Shown piece after piece: positions 4,459 through 58,910 of a stretch of 64,000 nt of DNA. A model generated the notes under the pieces. It ran no database searches. It saw only the letters and a program-made list of their open reading frames with translations, and was not told where the DNA came from. The stretch's first letter is position 1; each line of letters starts with the position of its first letter. Made by a program: the position numbers and the translations under genes. The stretch is from NCBI GenBank assembly GCA_949317995.1, contig OX439051.1:44333250-44397249 (forward strand), read 5' to 3'. The DNA is from Acholoe squamosa (lineage: Eukaryota; Annelida; Polychaeta; Phyllodocida; Polynoidae).

Positions 4459-4822
4459 TGTAATGGTTCGTATCGACTTATATGTTGGGTGGCTCGTTGG
4501 CTCGCTTATCACTAAAGATACCAACACAACACGAGTAGTTCGGGTTGGGCAAAGCCCCGGATACCCCTACCTCTCGGGTAGGACTTTATTCAATCTTTCA
4601 ACTGGTTATGGCTACACGTCTTGACTGGACTACGTCCAGTCCCCTTCTGCGGCTCGTCCGGCTTCTTAGTAGAAGCTGGACGCGAGGCATGGTGCTGCCC
4701 CCTCTTGTACCAGCCGGGTATCGCAAAGCGACACCTAGTTGGCATAGAAGGAACGAGCACCACACGAACACGTCTCTCGGATGAACCGCACTAATATATA
4801 TACAACGATGCCGGCCCCTACA
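4459..4822 (-). repeat. 5' LTR of gypsy element 1
   Basis: This is a 364-bp long terminal repeat with TG...CA ends in minus orientation. It is followed at its inner side by one spacer base and a primer binding site. The inner end CCATTACA is shared with the LTRs of element 2 and the solo LTR at 46020, and is close to the CCGTTACA of element 3, showing one broad family. The partner LTR is outside the window. Confidence 0.85.
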
Positions 4823-6441
4823 ATTGCTTCAAATGTAGCTGGTGCATTGCACAGGCCAAACGGCATTACATTATATTGGAATAGTCCAATATGACTCGAA
4901 AATGCTGTTTTCTCCATATCTGATGGGTTCATTCCCACTTGCCAATATCCCGATTGCAAGTCTAGGGTACAAAACCAACTGTTACCTCCTAAGGAGTCAA
5001 TGGTTTCGTCTATTCTCGGTAATGGATACGAATTCTTTTTCGTTACTCCATTCAACTTCCTGTAGTCTATGCAAAAGCGTATAGTACCATCTTTTTTGGT
5101 TACCATAGATACAGGACTACTCCATGGACTATTGGATGGGACTATTACATCCTGATCCAACATCTTGTTTATTTCCTCTTTAGCTATTATTTTCTTTGCT
5201 AAAGGTAACCGCCTATACAGTATTTTAAAGGGTTCTCCATCTCCAGTATCTATTTTGTGTACTACCTTATTTGTCGTACCTAGTTTTTCACCAGGTTTGG
5301 CAAAGGCAGTTCTATACTGACAGAGCAATTCATGAAACTCTTTCCGATGTTCCGGATTTTCTAATGAAGTTTCCTCATACAACTTTAACAAGTCATCCGA
5401 AATTTCATCGTCTTCTGTTACCTTTGGTAAGTTTAACTTACTATCTGTTACATTTTCCGAAAGGGTCACGTTTCCAAAAACTTGTCCCTTTTTTAGGTAG
5501 ATAGTAGTGTTTCCAGTATTGGAAACAGGCACTACTGACCAGGATGCATTTGCTACTATACTGTCTGCAGATATTAATCCGATGCTTGACAAAGTAACTA
5601 CATCCGGTTCGATCACTGCAGGCTTATTGCGCATTGCAGGATCGCTTCTCACAAGCACATCACAGGCTACACCCGTGGGAATTCGCACAGTGTGTGCAAC
5701 ACTAGCCATACTGCTTACTTGTCTTAGTACGCACCTAACCTTTACAGGATATGGGTATTTCACACTCAACACTCCTGATTGTGGTTCTAAAACCACCCCA
5801 TACAGGGATGCGAAATCCAACCCGAGTATCCCTTCATCTGCTATATCCGCAACGGTGGCACTCATGACATAGTCATGTATTCCATCCAATTGCAACTTCA
5901 CACAAGTTCTTCCATACGTTTGCATGGTACTGCCATCGGCCGTTTGAGCATTTCCTCCCGATCTGAGAGTATCGTGTTCATTCGGAATAAGATCGTAGAA
6001 CTTCTTGGAGATACAGGAGTGGCTAGCACCCGTATCCATAAGAAATTCAGCAGATCTTCCGTTAACAGTGAGGCAAACATACCACCGCCTTCCGTTTAGA
6101 ATAGAGGGCGTGTCCGTGACGATTGGGACGTCATTGTTCAAACCTGGAGTCAATCCACATCCTTTCAGGTATTCCAGACAAGGATGACCCGGGGGTAGGT
6201 GGGCACTACCAACCCTGGCTAAAAAATAGCCGCCTACCTCGTCACTGATATTGGGTTTCCCCTGTGCTCCCTGGGCACCTGTTATATCAGCTTCCCTAAC
6301 CTTCCGTGTGTCTACAACCACCCCGGTGTTAGGCGAGTTTGCTACTTTATGCGAACTATCGTTACGGATAGTGATATCATGGCAAGATTTGTCACTGGGA
6401 TCCCCTTCTCTGCCCATAGGGGGACCCCTCCTTAGTTTTCC
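4823..6441 (-). pseudogene. pol: pol of gypsy element 2 (protease and RT), cut by insertion
   Basis: Pol runs in the -1 frame from the gag end. Protease DTGASHSCISKKFYD is near 6036-5990. The reverse transcriptase includes TKKDGTIRFCIDYRKLNG near 5110-5055, SYPLPRIDETIDSLGG, LDLQSGYWQVGMNP, and MPFGLCNAPATFEA at the break. The open frame is uninterrupted from about 6417 to 4823, then continues into LTR sequence of element 1 for a meaningless tail. The catalytic YxDD box would come just after the break and is not in the window. This copy keeps about 70 residues between protease and RT that element 3 has lost. Confidence 0.88.
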
Positions 6442-19660: not shown

Positions 19661-22600
19661 CTGTACGTAATTGCTTTTATTTGCCACATATTTTTTCTAC
19701 TCAGTTTGGTATCGTCCTCTCGGCCTATGGCCAGGAGCCCAAGGGATGCATATCACCAAAACCTGCAGCCGACTTCAAATACGACTTGTTTGAGGGACAA
19801 TGGTGAGTTTGATATGGAAATGGCGAGCTGGAGCAGGGCATTAGTATTTCTAATGTTGTTTCTACAGTTGATAGCCATGATCAAGTATCATTCTGATGGT
19901 AAAAGTGCCAAAACTTTGTAGATCTACATCATAGATACTGTAACATATACCAGGATATAGATGTACTCTTAAATATCCATTTTCAGTGACCAATAATAGA
20001 GGACAATTGCTGCGTCGACCCATTTTTGCCTTATTTTTTATACAGATGTAGGGGCCAGCTCTGGCTGTGAGTCCATGGCGGTATGCCATCTGTCCCCATT
20101 CCGGTTGCACCAGCCCTCAGGGGCTGGTCAGCCGGTATAAGCTACCCCCGTAGGTAGGGAGGAGTGTAGGGGCCAGCTCTGGTCAGCCGGTATAAGCTAC
20201 CCCCCGTAGGTAGGGAGGAGTGTAAGGCCAGCAGCCCTGTTTCTGGAGATCCCAGCCCCCAGGGGCTGGCATCCGGTGGTAGCTCCCCCTACGTGTGTAT
20301 TATACCGATCCAGATGTAGATGGAAGGTAGAGAATGTCAGACGGGGAAGTAGCTCAGCAGTAGAGCTTCCGCCTGCAGGTTGGAGGGTCCCGGGTTCGAC
20401 TCCCGGTTTCTCCATAGATATAGCTATGATTACTTTACCAGCCTGTTATTTTTTCCACTGTTTCACCTGTTGAGGCCACAGGAGGGCTGAAACCCAGAGG
20501 CCAGACAAATATTCACACATCAGTTAGTGTGCGAATAAGAAGAGTTTTTTCTTCTTTTTTTTGCATAAATACTGCATTACCCGTACTTCATATATAACAC
20601 AGCCTGGGTGGGAGTTGGAAGGCCTATGCAGTCATCTGATGGTAGGCCCCTGTATCCGCCTGTCCCCTTAGTCAGTGCTCAGCCATCTGTTTCTGCTATG
20701 CAGAGTGGCCCAGTTCCATCCCTGAGGCAACAGCAACAGCTCAAACACCAGCAACAGCAACTTCAGCATCAAGGTCCACCTGTGGTTGTTTATGCTTGAA
20801 AGGATACCAAGAGTAAGTTTACTACTTTCGACATCAAGCAACATATGCCTCAGAGTAAATACAAGAATCCAGCTCTGGGAGATGTGATTTCAGCTAGTAT
20901 GGGCCTTCTCAATAGTATGATGGAGCGAGGCCACCCATGTAAAAGTTATGGGATGCATGTAAAATTCCTCACGGACAAGAGGGATATTTACAAGGAAGAT
21001 GCTCTCATTGCCTATGATTAGGCCATGCAAGAACGTGGTGATGCGTTTGTTGAATTCACTTTTTGCTATTTTGATCATAATATGTTTGCACAACATGTGG
21101 GTCTGGAAAATCTGGAGAGAGCCCATCACTGACTGTTCTATGCCTGAGCATATCATGTGCAAAATTTCATTATCACTCTGTAGATGATGTTTTGTCGGAT
21201 TTGAATCAGTTTGATTTTTGCGCAGTGACTGACATCGCCAATGCATACCGTTATATTAACGTCCTGCCTGCCCATCATGACTTTCAAGGCTTTGCCTGGG
21301 ATGTGGGTAATGGTAAGGAATTCTTCCAAGATATGTCCTTATGCTTTGGGTTGCACTGTGCCCCCTTCATATTCACCCAAGTGTCTGACTTCATTGTAAA
21401 ATGTGGCACTAGTGGCAAGTACCCATGTTGTACCAACTACTTGGATGATTACCTCGTCATTGGTGATTCAGAATCATCTTGCCAGGATGCTCAAAGCCAG
21501 TTATGTGCAATGTTGAATAGTCTACGGTTCAAGGTAAAAATGAACAATTTGGTTCCCCTGTCACAAGTAACTAAGTTCCTTGGGATTGTTATCGACTCAG
21601 TGAACTTAACCTTGTCAATCGATAATGATAAACTTGATTGAGTAAAATCGGAAGTTAATTACTTCAGGGGTAGGAAATCTGGCACTAGGAAATGCCTGGA
21701 GAAATTAGCTGGTCTCCTAGGCCATTGCTCGACAGTCGTTAATGGCGGCGCACCTTCTCCCATCATGTGTACAATGAACTTCAAGATATTCCGTCCAGCA
21801 TTCACTGCTTTAATCTGTCTGAGAGTTTGTTATTGGACCTAGAGTGGTGGTATGAATTTGTTACTTGGTTCAACGGCAAGGCCCGTATGATAAAGACTAA
21901 TACCCTGTCTTATACTGTGTATATAGATTCCTCCAAATACAGATTTGGCATCCATATTGAAGACAACTTCTTCTACAGTTGTTGGTATAAAAATGATAAG
22001 TGTTGTGGCCATCAAGAAAACCCTCTGCAGAATGAGTCGTACTGTGATCATATTAACATTGAAGAAATATGGCCCGCCATAGTATTGGTGAACCGCTGAG
22101 GTAGTGAGTGGAAGAATGGCTTTGTAGTTGTGTATACGGATAACACACAGGTTCAAGGCATGATCAACCTTGGTAGGAGTACCAGCCCCCATGCTATGCC
22201 TTGGCTACGAGAATTGTTCTGGTGCTGTGCTCTATACAACATTCATTTGAGAGCCTTCAGGATCACTTCTGAAGATAACATAATTATAAGCTGACGCTCT
22301 CTCTCATCTTGCCGATCATGTAATTATTTGTGGCTACACTATTGACGCATTCATCAATTGTTGTTACAGAGCTGGAGGCACTGCAACGCAGTTGGGAGAT
22401 TCTGAGATCAAATTGCTGGTCCGCCAACACTTATAAGACAAGGAAATCACAGTGGAAACAATATGAGGACTTCTGTGAAGAGTACAGTTTGTGTTAAGTA
22501 CCAGCCTCAATAGAAACCGTCTGTTTGTATATAACCCATCTTTCTGTTCGTGTGGCATATCACACAATTGAGAATTACATTTCAGGGCTATGGGCCCTGC

Positions 22601-25600
22601 ATGACTTCATGGGTTACTCGCACTCCACAACAGCATGCATCCTTATCAAATCGACCTTGGATGGTGCGAAACGGTTGCTAGGCTCAGCGTCTAAGCCAGC
22701 TGAGCCTCTGACAGCCACTGACTTATTATGTATTGACTTATCAAAATCTAAAGACAGGAAATTCTGGGCTGCTCTACTCCTTTCCTTCCACTGCTTGTTG
22801 CGTGTTGGACACATCACCAATTCTCCACATTCCCTCCTTGTGAGGGATGTAAATTTTGGGATGGTGGGCTTGACTTATGTATTCGCAGCTCAAAGACAGT
22901 CCAATTCCGTCAATATGAGCAAATTATTCCTGTTATTGCTTCACCTGGCAGTAGCCTCTGCCCTGTACAGTCTGGAATCAAACCAAATGAGCAGTTATTT
23001 CCATGGAGCTGTAGTGGTCAGCGGAAAATGTCATGGAGAAACCGGGACTCGAACCCGGGACCCTCCAACTTTGAAGCGGAAGCTCTACCCCTGAGCTACT
23101 TCCCCTGGCCTGACATTCTCTACCTTCCAACTACCCTGGATCGGTATGGTATACATAGGGGGAGTGACACAATCAAGTGAACAGTCCCTCTGAAGGCTCT
23201 GCACACCCGACGGGGGAACAAACCCCTACACTCGTCCCAACCAGCTTCAACCGTATCCCACCAGAACCGGTCCTCCAGTCCAGTCTGAATGGTACCAGTA
23301 CTAAGTCACACACAGTACGGCTTTATCCTGTTCCCAGGATACACTGTGGGTGCCACCTGTTTCCAAGTCCCCCAGTACTAGCAGGTTGAAGCGCTTGTCT
23401 ATACCATACCGGCCCAGGTACCGAGCTCTCTAAAGATCCCCCTTGCGAGGCAGGACCACTCGGTTTCTCCACCACTGTAGTGGTCAGCGGAAAATGTCAT
23501 GGAGAAACCGGGACTCGAACCCGGGACCCTCCAACTTTGAAGTGGAAGCTCTACCCCTGAGCTACTTCCCCTGGCCTGACATTCTCTACCGTCCAACTAC
23601 CCTGGATCGGTATGGTATACATAGGGGGAGTGACACAATCAAGTGAACAGTCCCTCTGAAGGCTCTGCACACCCGACGGGAAAACGAACCCCTACAGAGC
23701 TATAATGTTTATTCTTACAAACTCAAGGAATCCTGTCAGATTGCCAAACTGGTAGGGGAGTTCTCGCCTCACAGTGTTCGTTGGGGTGCTGCTATGTTTC
23801 TAGCTGGATTTATGCACCTTTACGACATTAAAAGTTATGGCAACTGGAGATCTTGGGCTGTTTTGATTTATCTGTCAGACTCATACCGCTCAACATGTAT
23901 AAAAGACCTATGTGTTGCTCAGGAATTGAGCAGGTATTAATTGGGCAAAGTGTTTTGTTGTTGTGCCTGTGCTGCCCCTCGGTCAGTGACTTTGGGCAAA
24001 GTGTATTCATTGTAATGTTGTCCATCCCACCAGGGAAATATGACTACTATATATGCGAAGGAACTGTGGATATATAGGGGTATATTTCCCCACCAGATGG
24101 ACCCTTTCACCCACCTGAGACAGGTGGTTCTTTGCTACCACACCAGGTGGCACAGCACCAATTGGAACACAGGGACAGGTTATGGACTTTTGGTCATGAG
24201 ATTTTTTTTTTCTCTTTATTGTTACTGACATTGGTCTGTTAATGTTGTTAATAAACCGCCCCTCTGTCAGTGACATTGGGCAAAGTGTATTCATTGTTAT
24301 GTTGTCCATCCCACCAGGGAAATATACTGCATTACCAATACTTCATATATAACACAGCTCCTAACTGAAGTCTACCTAAGTCTTTTTTATGTCCATCAAC
24401 GGGATCCAAACACTGACGGGGTAAACACTGATGCTCCTCGCCATCACATGGAAAATGAAGACCAAAAACCTGACATGAAATAGTAATTGCCAAGTTGTTT
24501 TTTTTATACCAATTGTATGTTGCTCCAACATAACCTTGGGTCCCATGATTCAAATAGTGAGTTTCAATTGCTATTTTCGGTGGACATTTGATATAAATTT
24601 CTATTTTATGCATACATACACTGTATAGTAGGTTTAGGTAGTTGAGGTATCATGTGACCCTGCACACGGTCATGTGACTTAGGTTTAGTTGTAGTAGCGG
24701 TTGGTTATCTTACATGACACAAGGAGCTTAGTCGTACTTAGCCATGTTACATCTGTTGTCATTAGGTGAATGTTTGTGTGTATTCGCCATCTGTAAAGCC
24801 TTGTTGTCAAAAAATATCTCATGTGTTCTTGTTTCTTATTTCGGGTCTTATTTAATGCAATATTCATGTACACTAAGTAGTTAACCATCTTAATTGCCTC
24901 ACCACCAGGGAGACAAGGAATTGTTGTTGTCTGAGGTTTAAAAAAGAAATTGCAGTGAATGGAGTATTTTCAAACTCGTCTTCACTTTCGGTCACTATGC
25001 ACTCAAGCGAAAATTTAAAAGTGCAGGCATGAAGAAATTCAATATCAAATGGAAGATTGAGGTGAATTCTCCCTGTTTATTGTAGATTGAGGTCTTCAGC
25101 CAGTAAAAGTGTTCTATTTCTTTTAATAAGCATCGTCATTCTTACCTGCATCTAGCATCAGCCAACCAAAATGTAACTTAAAACATTCCTAGCAGTTTTG
25201 GCTCCTCCCTAGTTGAATCAGAGAACTATATACTGACAGAAGTCCCCCTAGTGAGACAATCCATGCACACCAGAAATCTATGAGGCCCTGGATATGACAG
25301 GAACAACTTTTATGTCTAACAAGAATCTTCTTGTACCAGAAAAGATGTTCTTGCAGTCACAACAACATGTTCTTGCACACACAAAAATGTTGTTAAAGGG
25401 GCAGGTGTTAGGGAGGCTATAACCACCCACAAGAACATGCGATTGCAGCCAATGAGTGACACGAGCCCAGGGGTATTTGAACGAGGGTCGTGAAATGTAG
25501 CCTATTCATTTAAGAAAAATGAAAAACCACAAGCGTACAAGCAAGCCAAAGCACATGTATCTATCTTAAACCTGTGGTGTCCAAGCCTCAATAAACATAC

Positions 25601-46386: not shown

Positions 46387-47454
46387 TATCCTTAAAGAAG
46401 ACTACATAAGGAGTAGAGGTACATCCGTAAAGGACATATAAAGCTGAGCAATAAAAAAGCCAACTATGAACATCTAAAGCACAAAGCAAACCCAAGGGGT
46501 GTTCATTAAACAACTTAGAAAGTTAGCAACGAGCGCTAACCCTTGCTCTGCAACTAAAGGGTCAGTGGCAAGCGTGGCTAGCGCTCGGAAGTTATTGTGG
46601 TTTATGCGGCTTTTTACGATGGAGCGCCTCTATTATCGTGTCAGGACAATATTGGACAGGTAAATTAAAGTCTTATCATCTTAAATGAACTTTAAAACAC
46701 AGTTAAAAAATCCATATGCACCGGTAACTTTTTGACAGTAACAAGTTCCAACAGCAACAAAAAATCGTCGATACAAAAGAGGTCAAGTGGTGCTCATGTC
46801 ACAAGGCTTAACGTTGTAATTTTGCTATACTAATAAAATATTATGAGAAAAGACAAAAATCTTAAATTTGATTTAATATGTTTAATTAAGATCCCGAAAA
46901 GTAATCAACAATGCTATATCGCTATATTTAGCTTTATCATTGAGAAAATGAGTCACCATTTACAATTCTTGTGTACAATAACATTGATTATACCATAGGT
47001 GAGTTACTACCATACTACCAAAAACAACTGTCCTACACCTCAGCACCTACGTTAACAGTTTGGATAACATGGGGTGGTTTACACAAGAACTAGGTATGCT
47101 TTAGGGAACTAAAATCTAATATGATCCATCATAAACCATTAACAAATTTAAGTAGAGAACTTTGTCCATTGGAGTGATATCAAATATATAGTAAAGGAGT
47201 GAGAACTTGGTGACCTATACCAACATGGATTTCTACTAGTTTTTTTTTTTTTAAAAAAACAATACAATTAAAGGGAAATTAAATCTGAAATAAAACATCA
47301 CAGACCATTAAGATGGTATTTACTAGTTTAAATTAAGAACTTTAACCATTGTGGCGATATCAAATATATGCTATAGGAGTGAGAACTTTTGGTTTTACAC
47401 TTTACTTCAACTTGAACTTGATGTTTTACACCTAAACACAGTTAATGTTTCATT

Positions 47455-48637
47455 TAGCATGAGGCTGCATCATCACTGTCGCTGACACTGTTGCTGACAC
47501 TGAGTGAATCAAAATGTAGTTTACGCCTTACTCTTCTGCGAGTGCTTTGTGCAGTAGGGGTCCCATAGCTTATGATATTTGAAACCTTCATACCTTGCAA
47601 AAATCTTACCCTTTTTCTTGGGTTGGGACTCATATCTGATGCCGTGACACTTTACACAGGTTTCTTAAATACAGCCTTACTTTGTGACTCACTCAGATTG
47701 ATGTCAAATTTTTGGAACACAAGTTTTTTTCCTTCATTTCTGCTAGATGATGTATCTCCATTTCAGCCTCCAAGCTCATATTTACTTCTGCACCTTCTGC
47801 ATAGGTGAGACTGTCACTTGCTTCATCAAAGTTACATGTTTCATGGTAGCTTTCACCGGTGTGGCTGTTACTTGGTTCACCAGAGGTACATGAACTAAAT
47901 CCAGTGTTTGTGCTGTTACTATGTTTACAGTTATTACATGTTTCATGGTAGTTTTCACCGGTGTGGCTGTTACTTGCTTCAACAGAGTTACATGAACTAA
48001 ATCCAGTGTTTGTGTTGTCACTATGCTTAGAGTTATCACATTCAGCCCCATTTTTGGCATCGGTTGATGAAACCCCATCTTTGGCATCAGTTAATGAAGC
48101 CTCATCTTTGACATTAGTTGATGAAGCCCCATCTTTGACATCAGTTGATAAAGCCCCATCTTTGGTATTAGTTGATGAAGCCCCATCTTTGGTATCAGTT
48201 GATGATGGCCCATTTTTGGTATGTTGATTGAGCTTCGCATCAGTTGATGATGCTCCATCTTTGACATCAGTTGATGATGCTCCATTTTTTATATCAGTTG
48301 ATGAAGCCCCATCTTTGGTATGTTGATAGAGCTTCGCATCAGTTGATGAAGCCCCATCTTTGGTATGTTGATAGAGCTTCGCATCAGTTGATGAGGCTCC
48401 ATCTTTGGTATGTTGATTGAGCTTTGCATCAGTTGATGAAGCCCCATCTTTGGTATGTTTAGTGAGCTTCGTATCAGTTGAAGTAGAGCCATCTTTGGTA
48501 TCTTGATCGGACCTTGTATCGTCTGATGTAGTCACATCTTTGGTATCTTGATTGAGCCCTGTATTGGTTGAAGCAGACACATTTTTAATATCTTGATTGA
48601 GCCTTGTATCGGTTGACACATCTCTGGTTTCTTGAAG
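47455..48637 (-). pseudogene. Repeat-rich gene of unknown function, left copy, frameshifted
   Basis: Same gene as 49935-51143. It is dominated by tandem units of the type TKDGASSTDAKLNQH and shorter KDGASSTDV. One A is missing near 47764 relative to the right copy (GAAATGG instead of GAAAATGG), so the conserved C-terminus is read out of frame and the protein ends early (KNLTSI). Sequence beyond 48637 differs from the right copy, so the 5' contexts are different. Confidence 0.7.
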
Positions 48638-49189
48638 TGTAGAAAACCCTTTTGCAAAAAAAGAAGCACATGGTGCAAGTTTTAAGACATAAAAATATTA
48701 TGATATTACACACTTAACATTTTACAGTTTTACATTAATTATAAAGACTTAAAGAATCCTTCTGTATTTATGAAGTTGCAACAATGGTTTAGGGGAACAA
48801 GCTTATAAATTTTTATGGTGTTTTACATTAAATTTAGGCTAATATACCCTTGTACAAGCTACAGCCTACCTTTGGGACAATACTACGGTGGTTTATACCA
48901 GAACCCAAGTTAAAATGAGGCTTACAGGATCATACCCAGGAAGAGGTGTGGCTTATAGGAGGGTATTTGGCACTATAGAACAGTACTAAACCTCCAAATT
49001 TTAGATATCAGGTATGGCTTATAGATTATTTTAAGGTCAGGATGCGGCTTATACGAGAGAAGAGGCTTGTACGAGAAAATTTATGGTACCTGCTAGTAGG
49101 ATTGTACCGGGACAGCCTAATTTAGCTTTGAATACTAGAATAAACCATGGCTTATATTAAGACAGTTCACACTATAGATTGAATCGATG

Positions 49190-49934: not shown

Positions 49935-51143
49935 ATGTATCCTCACGGTGACACTAGAGATGTTTGCTCCCAAATCTTCTGCACACTTCAAGAAACCAGA
50001 GATATGTCAACCGATACAAGGCTTGATCAAGATATCAAAGATGTGTCTGCTTTAACCGATACAGGGCTCAATCAAGATACCAAAGAAGTGACTACATCAG
50101 ACCATACAAGGTCCGATCAAGATACCAAAGATGGCTCTACTTCAACTGATACGAAGCTCACTAAACATACCAAAGATGGGGCTTCATCAACTGATGCAAA
50201 GCTCAATCAACATACCAAAGATGGAGCCTCATCAACTGATGCGAAGCTCTATCAACATACCAAAGATGGGGCTTCATCAACTGATATCAAAAATGGAGCA
50301 TCATCAACTGATGTCAAAGATGGAGCATCATCAACTGATGCGAAGCTCAATCAACATACCAAAAATGGGCCATCATCAACTGATACCAAAGATGGGGCTT
50401 CATCAACTAATAACAAAGATGGGGCTTTATCAACTTATGTCAAAGATGGGGCTTCATCAACTGATGTCAAAGATGGGGCTTCATCAACTAATGTCAAAGA
50501 TGAGGCTTCATTAACTGATGCCAAAGATGGGGTTTCATCAACCGATGCCAAAAATGGGGCTGAATGTGATAACTCTAAGCATAGTGACAACACAAACACT
50601 GGATTTAGTTCATGTAACTCTGTTGAAGCAAGTAACAGCCACACCGGTGAAAACTACCATGAAACATGTAATAACTGTAAACATAGTAACAGCACAAACA
50701 CTGGATTTAGTTCATGTAACTCTGGTGAACCAAGTAACAGCCACACCGGTGAAAGCTACCATGAAACATGTAACTTTGATGAAGCAAGTGACAGTCTCAC
50801 CTATGCAGAAGGTGCAGAAGTAAATATGAGCTTGGAGGCTGAAAATGGAGATACATCATCTAGCAGAAATGAAGGAAAAAAACTTGTGTTCCAAAAATTT
50901 GACATCAATCTGAGCGAGTCACAAAGTAAGGCTGTATTTAAGAAACCTGTGTTAAGTGTCATGGCATCAGATATGAGTCCCAACCCAAGAAAAAGGGTAA
51001 GATTTTTGCAAGGTATGAATATCATAAGCTATGGGACCCCTACTGCACAAAGCACTCGCAGAAGAATAAGGCGTAAACTACATTTTGATTCACTCAGTGT
51101 CAGCAACAGTGTCAGCGACAGTGATGATGCAGCCTCATGCTAA
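49935..51143 (+). CDS. Repeat-rich gene of unknown function, right copy, open
   Basis: 402 codons from an ATG at 49935 (another in-frame ATG at about 50004 aligns with the start of the similarity to the left copy, so it may be the true start). The N-terminal two thirds are tandem Thr/Lys/Asp/Ser-rich units (TKDGASSTDAKLNQH). The middle has NTGFSSCNS...SHTGE.YHETCN twice. The C-terminus is different: KKPVLSVMASDMSPNPRKRV and TRRRIRRKLHFDSLSVSNS, basic patches that could be a nuclear signal, ending SDSDDAASC. No signal peptide and no membrane segment. I do not recognise a family. It is likely intracellular and disordered. Confidence 0.6.
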   Translation: MYPHGDTRDVCSQIFCTLQETRDMSTDTRLDQDIKDVSALTDTGLNQDTKEVTTSDHTRSDQDTKDGSTSTDTKLTKHTKDGASSTDAKLNQHTKDGASSTDAKLYQHTKDGASSTDIKNGASSTDVKDGASSTDAKLNQHTKNGPSSTDTKDGASSTNNKDGALSTYVKDGASSTDVKDGASSTNVKDEASLTDAKDGVSSTDAKNGAECDNSKHSDNTNTGFSSCNSVEASNSHTGENYHETCNNCKHSNSTNTGFSSCNSGEPSNSHTGESYHETCNFDEASDSLTYAEGAEVNMSLEAENGDTSSSRNEGKKLVFQKFDINLSESQSKAVFKKPVLSVMASDMSPNPRKRVRFLQGMNIISYGTPTAQSTRRRIRRKLHFDSLSVSNSVSDSDDAASC

Positions 51144-51667
51144 ATGAGACATTAACTGTGTTTTGGTGTAAAACATCAAGTTCAAGTTGAAGTAAAGTGT
51201 AAAACCAAAAGTTCTCACTCCTATAGCATATATTTGATATCGCCACAATGGTTAAAGTTCTTAATTTAAACTAGTTAATACCATCTTAATGGTCTGCGAT
51301 GTTTTATTTCAGATTTCATTTCCCTTTAATTGTATTGTTTTGTTTTTTTAAAAACTAGTAGAAATCCATGTTGGTATAGGTCACCAAGTTCTCACTCCTT
51401 TACTATATATTTGATATCACTCCAATGGACAAAGTTCTCTACTTAAATTTGTTAATGGTTTATGATGGATCATATTAGATTTTAGTTTCCTAAAGCATAC
51501 CTAGTTCTGGTGTAAACCACTCCATATAATCCAAACTGTTCACGTAGGTGCTAAGGTCTAATACATTACTTAAACTTGTTAACAGCATCTTAATGGTTTA
51601 AAATGAATCATATTAAATTTTAGTTCCCTAAAGCATACCTAGTTCTTGTGTAAACCACCCTATGTTA
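49990..51667 (+). repeat. Right arm, gene and 3' flank
   Basis: Inverted copy of 48637-47065. The match stops at 51667, where gypsy element 3 begins, and resumes at 62797. Confidence 0.8.
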
Positions 51668-55074: not shown

Positions 55075-58000
55075 GGGGGGATTCTGTTACGGGCAAGCAA
55101 CAGGATCCCAGAATAGTCACTTTCCATGATACCACCAGCAGTGGTTCAGATCTGAATGGAGTAACACATCCGCCCAATACTGAGGTGGTGGAGCAGCCCA
55201 CTCAGGAGATTGGGGAATCCGGTATAACAAGTGCCCAGGGAGCACAGGGGAAACCCGGTACTGGATTGGAGGTAGGAGGTCAATTTTTGGCCAGAGTTGG
55301 TAGTGCTCACCTACCCCCGGGCCATCCTTGTCTGGAATACTTAAAAGGATGTGGACGGGACCCAGGTGTGAATAATGAGGATTCTGCAATAACTGATGTA
55401 CCTTCCATGTTGCATGGAAGGCGGTGGTATGTTTCGCTTAATATCAATGGAAGACCCGCTGAATTCCTAGTTGATACGGGAGCTAGCCATTCCTGTGTCT
55501 CTCAGAAGATAGCGGATCTTATACCGGATGTGTGCGATACTCTCCTATTGGGAGGAAACGCCCAAACGGCCGACGGTAGTAAGATGCAAACATATGGTAG
55601 GATGTGTGTGAAATTGCAATTTGAGGGTACTCACGAATATGTGATAACCACTACGATTGCCGGTATAGCGGATGAGGGGATATAAGGATTAGACTTTGCG
55701 GCCCTGAATGGAGCAGTCTTGGACCCGAGAACTGGTGAGCTGAGTGTAGAGCATCCTTATCCTGTGAAAGTACAATGTGTATTGAGACAAGTTAGCAGTG
55801 TGGCATCCATCGCTCAGACTGTAAAGATTCCTCCGGGCCTGTGATGTTCTGGTTCGCAGTAATTCTGAGTTAAGGAACCAGGATGCAGTAATTGAGCCGG
55901 ATATGATTATGCTGGCTGGTATAGGATTGGAATCGTTTGACACGATAGTAGCCAATGGGGCTTGGTCGGTCATACCGGTTTCCAACACCGGTAACAGGAC
56001 ATAATATTTGAAAAAGGGAGCCAATTTTGGTACCGTTACATTGGCCGAGACAGTGACTTGTTGTTCCCTGATCCCGTATCGGAGGCTACCCCTACCTAAG
56101 AAAAGGGTAGCTGAAGCGGAAATAGCTAAGATGTTAGAACGGAATGTAATAGTTCCATCTAGCAGTCCTTGGAGTAGTCCGGTATGTATGGTGACTAAAA
56201 AGGATGGGTCTATCCGGTTCTGTATAGACTATAGGAAACTAAATGGACTAACGAAGAAAAATTCGTACCCATTGCCAAGAATTGATGAGACAATCGATTC
56301 TTTGGGAGGTAACAAATGGTTTTGTACCCTGGACTTGCAGTCCGGATACTGGCAAGTAGTAATGAACCCGGATGATATATGACTTTTTCAAGTCATATAG
56401 GTTTGTTCCAGTATAATGTTATGCCTTTTGGCTTATGTAATGCTCCGGCAACCTTTGAAGCCATGATGGAGACACTTTTGAGTGATCTGTTATGGAAAAG
56501 GTGCCTCGTTTACCTTGACGACGTTATAGTATTCGGTAAAACATTTAACGAATGCTTACACAACCTCAAGTTAGTATTAGAAAGAATAATATCTAACGGT
56601 TTAAAACTTAAACCTAAGAAATGTAATTTGTTTAAAAAGTCCATAAATTATTTGGGCCGGATAATATCTGAAGAAGGAATAAAAGCTGATCCTGAGAAAA
56701 TCCAGGCAGTAACGGACTGGGGTGTACCGAAAAATCCAAAAGAAGTAAGGTCATTTTTGGGATTCTGTTCATATTACAGAGACTTTATACCGAATTATTC
56801 TCGGGTAAGTTATCCCTTACAAATCCTAACAACATGGACCCCCGGTAGTAGGAAGGAGAAGTTCCCATGGGGAACCGAACAGGAACAAGCTTTCCAACAA
56901 TTAAAAGCCTTGTTCACGAGTACTCCAGTACTGCAATACCCATCCGAGGAAGGGCATTTCATACTGGATACGGATGCTAGCAATGAAAGTATCGGAGCAG
57001 CCCTCTCCCAAGTCCAAGGTGGAGTGGAGGTTCCGATTGAATTCGCTAGCAATACACTGAGTAAAACACAGCGAAATTATTGCACAACTAAACGTGAATT
57101 ACTAGCTGTCGTGGTGTATACCAAAAAGTTTAAACACTTCTTGTGGGGTACTAACTTTACATTACGTACGGATTATTCCTCCTTAAGATGGTTATTAAAC
57201 TTTCGGGATACCGAAGGAATGATAGGGAGATGGCTAGCCCATCTGTCGGAATTCGGACTAGAAAATAGCCAGATACAGCATCGTGCCGGAAATAAGCACG
57301 TGAATGCTGATGCCTTATCCCGAATACCAATTCGGAAATGTGACAATCCGAATTGTACTGATTGTGGGATCCATAAAGCGGTAGCAGCCTCGATTCGAAT
57401 TCCTTTCGAAACACATATTGGCAGTGTCCTGGATTGGTCCTTAGAAACCATAAGGAACTTCCAGGAAGCTGACTCGATTACTGCTAGGCTCCTACAATTG
57501 GTACCAAAGGGTATATGTCCAGCTAGGCCTATAGCCTCGCTGGAGAATAGGGAAATGAGAAGATTTCTAGCTCAATGGACGGAGCTGGAAGTCAAGAAAG
57601 GAATACTGTACCGCTGGAAACCATGTAACAATGGTGGAAAGCAGATACAAGTTGTCATTCCATCTGCCAAGCGTAGAGACATCATGTATTATTGTCATGG
57701 ACACAGAACAAGTGGTCACTTTGGGAAGAAACGATCTTTAGCTCGTCTCTCAAAAAGATACTACTGGCCGGGTATGTCGCAGGACTTACTCCGATGGGTG
57801 GCTAGTTGCCCGGATTGTTGTAAAAACAAACCCGGACACGGACCCGGTAAGTTGCCCTTATCCCAAGAACTATTCGGGGTTAGGTTCGCCCGAATAGGAA
57901 TTGATATTATTAGCGGATTAAATAAAATGCCGAATGACAATACGTGCATGATGGTAGTGTGTGACTATTATACCAAGTATACTTAAGTCTTCCCACTGCC

Positions 58001-58910
58001 GGACCATAAGGCTGTTACTTGTGCAGAAGCTTTTGTGAAGGGTTGGGTACTAACCTTTGGGGTGCCCTTAATGCTTCACAGTGACCAGGGAAGGGAATTC
58101 GAATCCAATCTCTGGCAAAGTATGTGTGAATATCTCGCCATCTGTAAAACCAGGACCAATCCGTATCGTCCACAAAGTGACGGGCTAGTAGAAAGGTTCA
58201 ATAGAACCCTTATACAAGTCTTAAAGTCACTTGTAAATGACAATATGGATGATTGGGATGAACAATGCGACTTTGTAACACACGCTTACAATGGCACTGT
58301 TCATTCGAGTACCAACTGCTCCCCAAATTTGTTAGTATTTGGAGAAGATTTAATAATGCCAGCAGATCTGGTATTTGGTGTCGTCGGAATGAATCCGGAA
58401 TTACCTTGTCAGGTAGTTTTTGTGGAAGCATTACGAGACCGGTTTAAAAAGGCATATGAAGTGGTTCGTCTAGAATTACATAAAAGTGCCCGCTGGCAAA
58501 AGGCCGGATACGATACGGGTTTAAAGATAAGACACTTTAAACCAGGAGATCGTGTTTTACGATTACATGAACCCCTCAGACATGTTAAGCTGGCATCCAA
58601 TTGGGATGGTCCGTTTACAGTAACTACTGTGATCAGTGATTGTACAGTATTAATACAATCCGATATAGGAAAGATGTACAAATCCAATATAGATAGGTTA
58701 CGTCCTTGGTTAGGAAGAGAGAAGGTTTCACCGCTACCGTCTTCCCCAGGTGACAACAGTGCAAGGGGAGATCGCCCTCCTGCACCGGATTCGTCACCCG
58801 AGACGATGGGGGAATCCGGTGGAGCCACCGGTAACCCGACTACCAGCAGTTGGGCGGACGACTGCAGTGGAAACCCGGATGACAGATTTCGAACCCTTGG
58901 GTGTGAGTGA
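55065..58910 (+). pseudogene. pol: pol of gypsy element 3: protease, RT, RNase H, integrase, broken
   Basis: Pol is open in the -1 frame across the gag stop. Protease DTGASHSC at 55473. A stop replaces a Leu codon at 55683, a frame change follows near 55840, another stop near 56002, and a deletion before the RT. The RT resumes at about 56070 (FCIDYRKLNG, LDLQSGYWQV), shifts near 56376, then 56379-57986 gives MPFGLCNAPATFEAM, catalytic YLDDVIVFG (56511), RNase H (ILDTDASNESIGAAL) and the integrase zinc finger (H...GHFG...CPDCCKNK). A TAA at 57984-57986 splits the integrase core; acids lie in IGIDII (57903), HSDQGREF (58083) and LVERFNRTL (58191). A GPY/F-type end (NWDGPFTV...YKSNIDRLRPW) follows. 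Confidence 0.9.

Follow-up and report, generated by a model that had tools for sequence, protein, structure and literature searches.

The stretch of DNA analysed here, called the window below, comprises 64,000 nucleotides of the polynoid annelid Acholoe squamosa (assembly GCA_949317995.1, contig OX439051.1, positions 44,333,250 to 44,397,249, forward strand). At 23010..23696, on the minus strand, it contains a complete terminal-repeat retrotransposon in miniature (TRIM) of 687 bp, delimited by self-comparison and genome matches, in which two long terminal repeats (LTRs) of 221 bp enclose an interior of 245 bp. Each LTR carries a tRNA sequence, and the primer binding site (PBS) of the element is complementary to the 3' end of that tRNA extended by CCA. 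In some copies the PBS is continued by an antisense copy of an LTR tRNA, and the PBS changes together with the tRNA across the genome. From these sequences it is likely that reverse transcription would be primed by the LTR-encoded tRNA, or by a genomic RNA ending in it.

Structure of the element and its copies

The element is read on the minus strand, since its LTR tRNAs were called there by ARAGORN and Rfam, and in this direction the order of parts is target site duplication (TSD), LTR, spacer, PBS, remaining interior, purine-rich stretch, LTR and TSD. The 5' LTR (23476..23696, minus strand, as all the internal parts given below) and the 3' LTR (23010..23230) appear as a 222-nt direct repeat at 98% identity; they have TG...CA ends, begin with TGTAGGGG, finish with CACTACA and differ at 5 of 221 positions. 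The duplicated target GAGC, written in plus-strand letters, stands at the right (23697..23700) and at the left (23006..23009). Both LTR tRNAs are in sense with respect to the element and carry boxes A and B. The tRNA of the 5' LTR (23500..23571, anticodon CAA in this copy) scores 53.4 bits with Rfam RF00005 and that of the 3' LTR (23034..23105) scores 52.1 bits. At the Rfam gathering threshold three tRNAs are the sole matches in the window, so there is no 5S rRNA in the LTR. A TTTT similar to an RNA polymerase III (Pol III) terminator is found 5 nt past the tRNA of the 5' LTR (23491..23494) and another at equal distance past that of the 3' LTR (23025..23028), and this position right behind the tRNA suggests that many Pol III transcripts would end there.

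The LTR tRNA has the 3' end CGGTTTCTCCA which, with CCA added, is complementary to the 14-nt PBS TGGTGGAGAAACCG (23461..23474); a single spacer base (23475, G in this copy) separates the PBS from the 5' LTR. The 3' LTR is preceded by an imperfect polypurine tract (PPT; 23231..23242), which according to copy comparison reads GGTTGGGACGAG here and GGTTGGGAGGAG in other copies. The 245-bp interior lacks room for enzyme genes. The initial annotation, made from the letters of the window, had proposed this same anatomy (221-bp LTRs, 245 bp inside, GAGC at both sides, a tRNA in each LTR and a 14-base self-matching primer site), and repeat comparison, ARAGORN and Rfam confirmed it: the element is a real and complete miniature LTR retrotransposon of the Helenus type, a group described in the last section. 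The insertion lies within an open reading frame (22525-23094, plus strand) that apparently resumes just after 23700, as judged by eye, and no Pfam family was found in the 5' part of this interrupted frame.

The remains of a diverged relative are located at 20047..20470 on the plus strand, with 86.7% identity to one LTR across 135 bp. They include a tRNA (20343-20414, anticodon GCA) that ends in CGGTTTCTCCA, a duplicated unit of 55 bp and a PPT-like stretch ahead of TGTAGGGG; a 3' LTR end and a PBS were not seen within these coordinates.

Further copies were sought in the whole genome (1.48 Gb, 63 contigs), where single loci are labelled L followed by a number. The first search, in which 40 of 3,184 first-look candidates were scored, gave at least 43 matches, 41 of them spanning the full query. 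A set of 40 loci, consisting of the window copy and 39 fetched copies chosen by query similarity, shows a perfect 4-bp TSD in 29 loci (1.0 expected from shuffled flanks) and a 5-bp TSD in none of the 40. A second set of 20 loci, on various contigs, was chosen by hand out of 97 exact LTR-PBS junctions, earlier-fetched copies being excluded, and the script found a 4-bp TSD in 14 of them. Among the loci without a scripted TSD, L050, L052, L053 and L064 are nested, tandem or truncated, L062 may have had one end misplaced by one base, and in L061, whose 3' LTR is damaged, ATAG is read by eye on both sides. The PBS after the 5' LTR and the PPT before the 3' LTR are kept across copies. The element passed the refuting test proposed with the initial annotation, which looked for copies without the LTR-interior-LTR layout or without the primer site. 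In three loci (L013, L040 and L042) the arrangement is a tandem LTR-interior-LTR-interior-LTR.

The PBS TGGTGGAGAAACCG is exact in 35 of the 40 loci and has a single mismatch in the remaining 5, and the spacer base is G in 22, C in 13 and T in 5. TTTT is found downstream of the tRNA in 82 of 83 sampled LTRs, the last one being cut off at that point, and the commonest anticodon is CGA (37/83). Where the two LTRs of a locus have equal length (33 pairs), 7 pairs are identical, 28 have at most 3 differences, and the other 5 have 4, 5, 11, 11 and 11. As the pairs are mostly near-identical, many insertions are young.

Two adjacent insertions of short interspersed elements (SINEs), or chance repeats, were also considered, as the tRNA-like unit followed by TTTT looks like the head of a SINE. 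This origin is ruled out by the LTR-interior-LTR layout with 4-bp TSDs repeated genome-wide, and its probability is practically negligible. A SINE has neither LTRs nor a fixed-length TSD of the integrase type, and here two LTRs and 4-bp TSDs are present.

Co-change of the PBS with the LTR tRNA

When the PBS is compared with the CCA-extended tRNA end of the same 5' LTR, there is no difference in 27 of the 40 loci and one difference in 13; the best alternative 14-mer within LTR positions 1-183 differs from the PBS at 5-7 positions in these loci. A sister subfamily (L050, L052), which has a 249-bp LTR, combines a tRNA ending in CGGTGTCTCCA with the PBS TGGTGGAGACACCG. The genome was searched with a pattern for the junction of LTR tRNA end and PBS with three free bases at both places, the tRNA-end types being named TTT and TGT. 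There are 1,323 exact-pattern junctions and none with the reversed control. Among the 100 junctions listed, 84 tRNAs end in CGGTTTCTCCA (TTT), with PBS AAA in 82 cases, AGA in one and TAA in one, and 16 end in CGGTGTCTCCA (TGT), with ACA in 15 and GCA in one (counts made by eye); TTT/TGT cross-type pairing is absent from these 100. The fetched loci contain 75 distinct junctions (TTT/AAA 65, TGT/ACA 3, TGT/AAA 4, TTT/ACA 1 and single-base variants 2), a sample biased by loci that were chosen for PBS AAA or for discordance. A tandem array at C10:55982641-55985625 holds three junctions of a TTT-type tRNA with an ACA-type PBS.

The LTR tRNAs resemble tRNA-Ala, whose genes are their nearest relatives among the host tRNAs seen. 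The acceptor stem pairs at 7 of 7 positions, counting G-U, in each of three tRNAs compared. Both types of LTR tRNA have the G3:U70 pair, an alanine identity element. The cloverleaf was not recovered by single-sequence RNA folding (z -1.69).

In 27 places the PBS runs on into antisense LTR tRNA sequence that reaches the T-loop, joined through TGG, the complement of CCA, although the search pattern itself demanded TGG ahead of TGGAG. The bases encoded by the LTR after the tRNA differ from CCA (TGACA, AAGAC or GGACA, for example), so the CCA complement at the joint is not LTR-encoded. The plain reading is that such joints would come from the copying of an attached primer. Seven copies exit inside the tRNA (L101, L103, L104, L105, L107, L110 and L112), and L111 extends beyond the tRNA 5' end with a gap. 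The template acted in trans in some cases: in L089 a TTT-type LTR is joined to a PBS, tRNA and LTR arm of TGT type, with the TSD ATAG, and in L090 and L099, too, the type of the copied tRNA differs from that of the adjoining LTR. The copied tRNA of L101 is 3 of 49 bases off that of its adjoining LTR, a distance for which later mutation might partly account. L093, L112 and L101 are near-complete elements with 4-bp TSDs and a tRNA copy at the PBS (L101 by eye). The TSD script for primer copies paired all LTR ends of a locus, so a chance TSD is possible, and the match of L098 links the outermost ends of a composite. L094 and L095 are apparently a single duplicated locus. L089, L106 and L113 are inverted LTR(+)/LTR(-) products, only 446-480 bp long, that have 4-bp duplications; they probably arose as by-products of aberrant reverse transcription and were then integrated. 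The proposal of the initial annotation, that the element may supply its own priming tRNA, is thus well supported by the co-change of tRNA and PBS and by these fossil primer copies.

Alternative explanations and proposed mechanism

Several observations weigh against priming by the LTR tRNA. In the genome 13 of the 1,323 junctions are discordant (TGT/AAA 5, TTT/ACA 8); three of the 8 TTT/ACA cases share one tandem array and one is L089, and the discordant L127 has a hybrid tRNA with a TTT-type body and a TGT-type end. The two tRNA/PBS classes are lineages, and therefore the independent co-changes are perhaps just one or two. The match is of 14 nt and not of the 18 nt expected for a primer copied as far as A58, and the bases beyond it, AGTG in 39 of 40 loci, stay unmatched; the 14-nt limit fits copying that would normally stop early, with longer copying giving aberrant products. 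The LTR tRNA is no better conserved than the remaining LTR (mean minor-allele count per column 0.73 before the tRNA, 0.96 within it and 1.33 after it), a comparison of little power because the copies are young, by which selection on the tRNA is neither supported nor excluded. A mismatch at the loop end of the anticodon stem, read by eye, makes a charged, translating tRNA doubtful. A host tRNA-Ala without surrounding LTR (L144) ends in CGGCGTCTCCA, with one mismatch to the ACA PBS. Finally, 19 of the 27 primer copies extend beyond the tRNA 5' end into antisense LTR, and so the template there was not a mature, 5'-trimmed tRNA; annealing of a DNA strand to the LTR tRNA could yield an identical joint.

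According to the explanation by annealing, all 27 joints would derive from plus-strand DNA ends that paired with an LTR tRNA sequence, on their own strand or on a different one (by snap-back or template switch), so that the PBS match would be real and the joints would leave priming unproven. We take this explanation seriously and lean against it. It accounts for the 19 copies that continue past the tRNA, and five of these finish at the LTR start (L089, L091, L100, L106 and L113, by eye), as expected of strong-stop DNA copied to its end; in addition, the arms are frequently identical (229/229 in L088). On the other hand, the seven exits within the tRNA do not agree with it, nor does L089, with its mixture of types and its 4-bp TSD, and eleven of the 19 enter the complement of the purine tract (L088, L090, L092, L094, L095, L097, L098, L102, L108, L109 and L114, by eye), which is absent from strong-stop DNA. 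The other three of the 19 (L093, L096 and L099, by eye) behave otherwise. The evidence from co-change is unaffected by annealing.

The element might also be an ordinary Helenus, with the LTR tRNA serving as Pol III promoter only and a host tRNA with a coincidentally identical 3' end acting as primer. Host tRNA primers are those assigned to the Helenus families described so far (PMC10886601), and both the tRNA-Ala character of the LTR tRNA and the single mismatch of L144 agree with this possibility. A pattern for host-type tRNA-Ala, covering a single tRNA shape, gave 121 matches, 100 of them listed; 62 of these 100 are on contig 15, almost all in one array. That array (L123, about 5.10-5.135 Mb) is a tandem of tRNA-Ala(tgc), tRNA-Ala(cgc) and tRNA-Leu(cag) genes; in 2.5 kb of it the unit measures about 0.9-1.05 kb, and ARAGORN called three tRNA-Ala(tgc), three tRNA-Ala(cgc) and two tRNA-Leu. 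Among the matches listed, host-type ends are mostly CGGCATCTCCA, with CGGCAACTCCA in three, and apart from L144 such ends mismatch either PBS at two or three of the 14 positions; the CGGCATCTCCA end (CAT) has its 2 of 14 exactly at the positions that distinguish the LTR tRNAs. The TTT or TGT ends within the listed matches (21 of 100, the other 21 of the 121 standing outside the list) are all in LTRs of the TRIM group, two of them overlapping L100 and L111, and the end CGGCTTCTCCA (L145) belongs to an LTR tRNA as well. Moreover, the PBS shifts along with the LTR tRNA. Priming by a host tRNA is thus weakened by this survey, for the one tRNA shape that it covers, and is distinctly improbable.

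Priming from the LTR tRNA is the reading that we prefer, and the following sequence of events is proposed. Boxes A and B inside the LTR tRNA would drive its transcription, and host enzymes would trim the 3' trailer at the tRNA end and add CCA, a step whose counterpart is seen in the CCA complement of the PBS and of the 27 primer copies. The 3' end with its CCA tail, whether borne by a short tRNA or by a longer RNA of the element that ends in it, would then pair with the 14-nt PBS, either in the copy it came from or in a different one, which is supported by tRNA/PBS co-change and by the trans cases. Gypsy-type enzymes, presumably supplied in trans, would extend the primer and integrate the product with the 4-bp duplication observed in the copies, a mark of LTR-type integration. 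Recopying of the PBS from the primer in every round, if it occurs, would make tRNA and PBS change together.

A further version, put forward tentatively and in our estimate rather unlikely, is that the genomic RNA is its own primer: the tRNA end of the 3' LTR would be trimmed and CCA-tailed by host enzymes and would prime on the PBS of the same RNA or of a sister RNA. A genomic RNA ending in this way would explain both the CCA and the 19 of 27 copies running into the LTR, as well as the five that proceed into the interior (L088, L090, L097, L102 and L109). If this were true, template, primer and promoter would be one molecule matured by the tRNA pathway.

Apart from the TRIM, the window contains two related and apparently broken Gypsy-type elements in opposite directions (4735-6417, minus strand, and 56379-58910, plus strand), whose matched pieces are about 69-77% alike. 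The Pfam matches at about 4.7-6.4 kb and 56.4-58.9 kb are to Gypsy-type reverse transcriptase, protease, RNase H and integrase zinc-binding domains, with the integrase core below the cut-off; no link of these elements in the window to the TRIM was shown. There is also a 1.6-kb inverted repeat (47034-48640 and 49983-51560, 91.6% identity) with tandem repeats of 27, 45 and 90 bases in open frames, and a protein search with one open reading frame of the window gave no homolog.

Comparison with known systems

Most LTR retrotransposons and retroviruses start DNA synthesis from a host tRNA. An element that brings its own tRNA, with a PBS that tracks its changes, would escape this dependence and would illustrate how primer usage can switch. 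The interest is high because self-priming is made testable, and the tRNA/PBS pairing can be read in over a thousand natural copies. Besides, the tRNA gene counts of such genomes include many mobile tRNA copies, which may be matured as tRNAs.

A non-standard tRNA supplied to match a primer site has a precedent in a retroviral vector that was reportedly complemented by an engineered tRNA-like primer, supplied separately (Lund et al. 1997); that vector is man-made, whereas the present element is natural and has the tRNA inside it. The primer of Tf1 is the 5' end of its own RNA. Tf1-type retrotransposons, named as self-primed in PMC6934838, likewise do not need a host tRNA for priming, but the present element would use a CCA-tailed tRNA end. 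The biv-TRIM of bivalves is also an animal TRIM with similar LTR length and tandem copies; in the available part of its description no canonical PBS was found and no LTR tRNA is reported (PMC6934838). In the Cassandra elements of plants, the TRIM LTR similarly contains a small-RNA gene promoter, with a transcript from the promoter of one LTR to the other LTR; that promoter is of 5S rRNA instead of tRNA, and no primer role is given for the LTR RNA in the accessible sections of PMC10886601.

The closest relatives are the Helenus elements (Kojima 2024, PMC10886601), TRIMs with tRNA-derived LTR sequence from fungi, animals and one plant. They have in common with the present element a size of up to about 1.3 kb, a tRNA with boxes A and B in each LTR, a PBS and a PPT, a 4-bp TSD, which is given for animal Helenus, and tandem arrays in one family. 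Helenus is also characterised by a PBS shared with an autonomous Gypsy element and by Pol III transcription, for which the present element shows sequence signals. The difference lies in the PBS, which in the present element is complementary to the LTR tRNA and follows its changes; in that paper, complementarity between LTR tRNA and PBS was sought and not found. The missing complementarity is an observation of that paper and does not belong to its definition, a TRIM that has tRNA sequence in the LTRs, and the present element stands as a member of Helenus, as a variant. The initial annotation knew of no animal equivalent, which does not hold for the layout, already described in animal Helenus, and does hold for the self-match within the literature searched. 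Apart from the negative statement mentioned, no paper on an LTR tRNA matching its own PBS was found in the open-licence literature. The element is, to our knowledge and within that literature, the first Helenus-type TRIM with a PBS that matches its own LTR tRNA, and it provides a counterexample to the negative statement in the paper that defined the group (PMC10886601).
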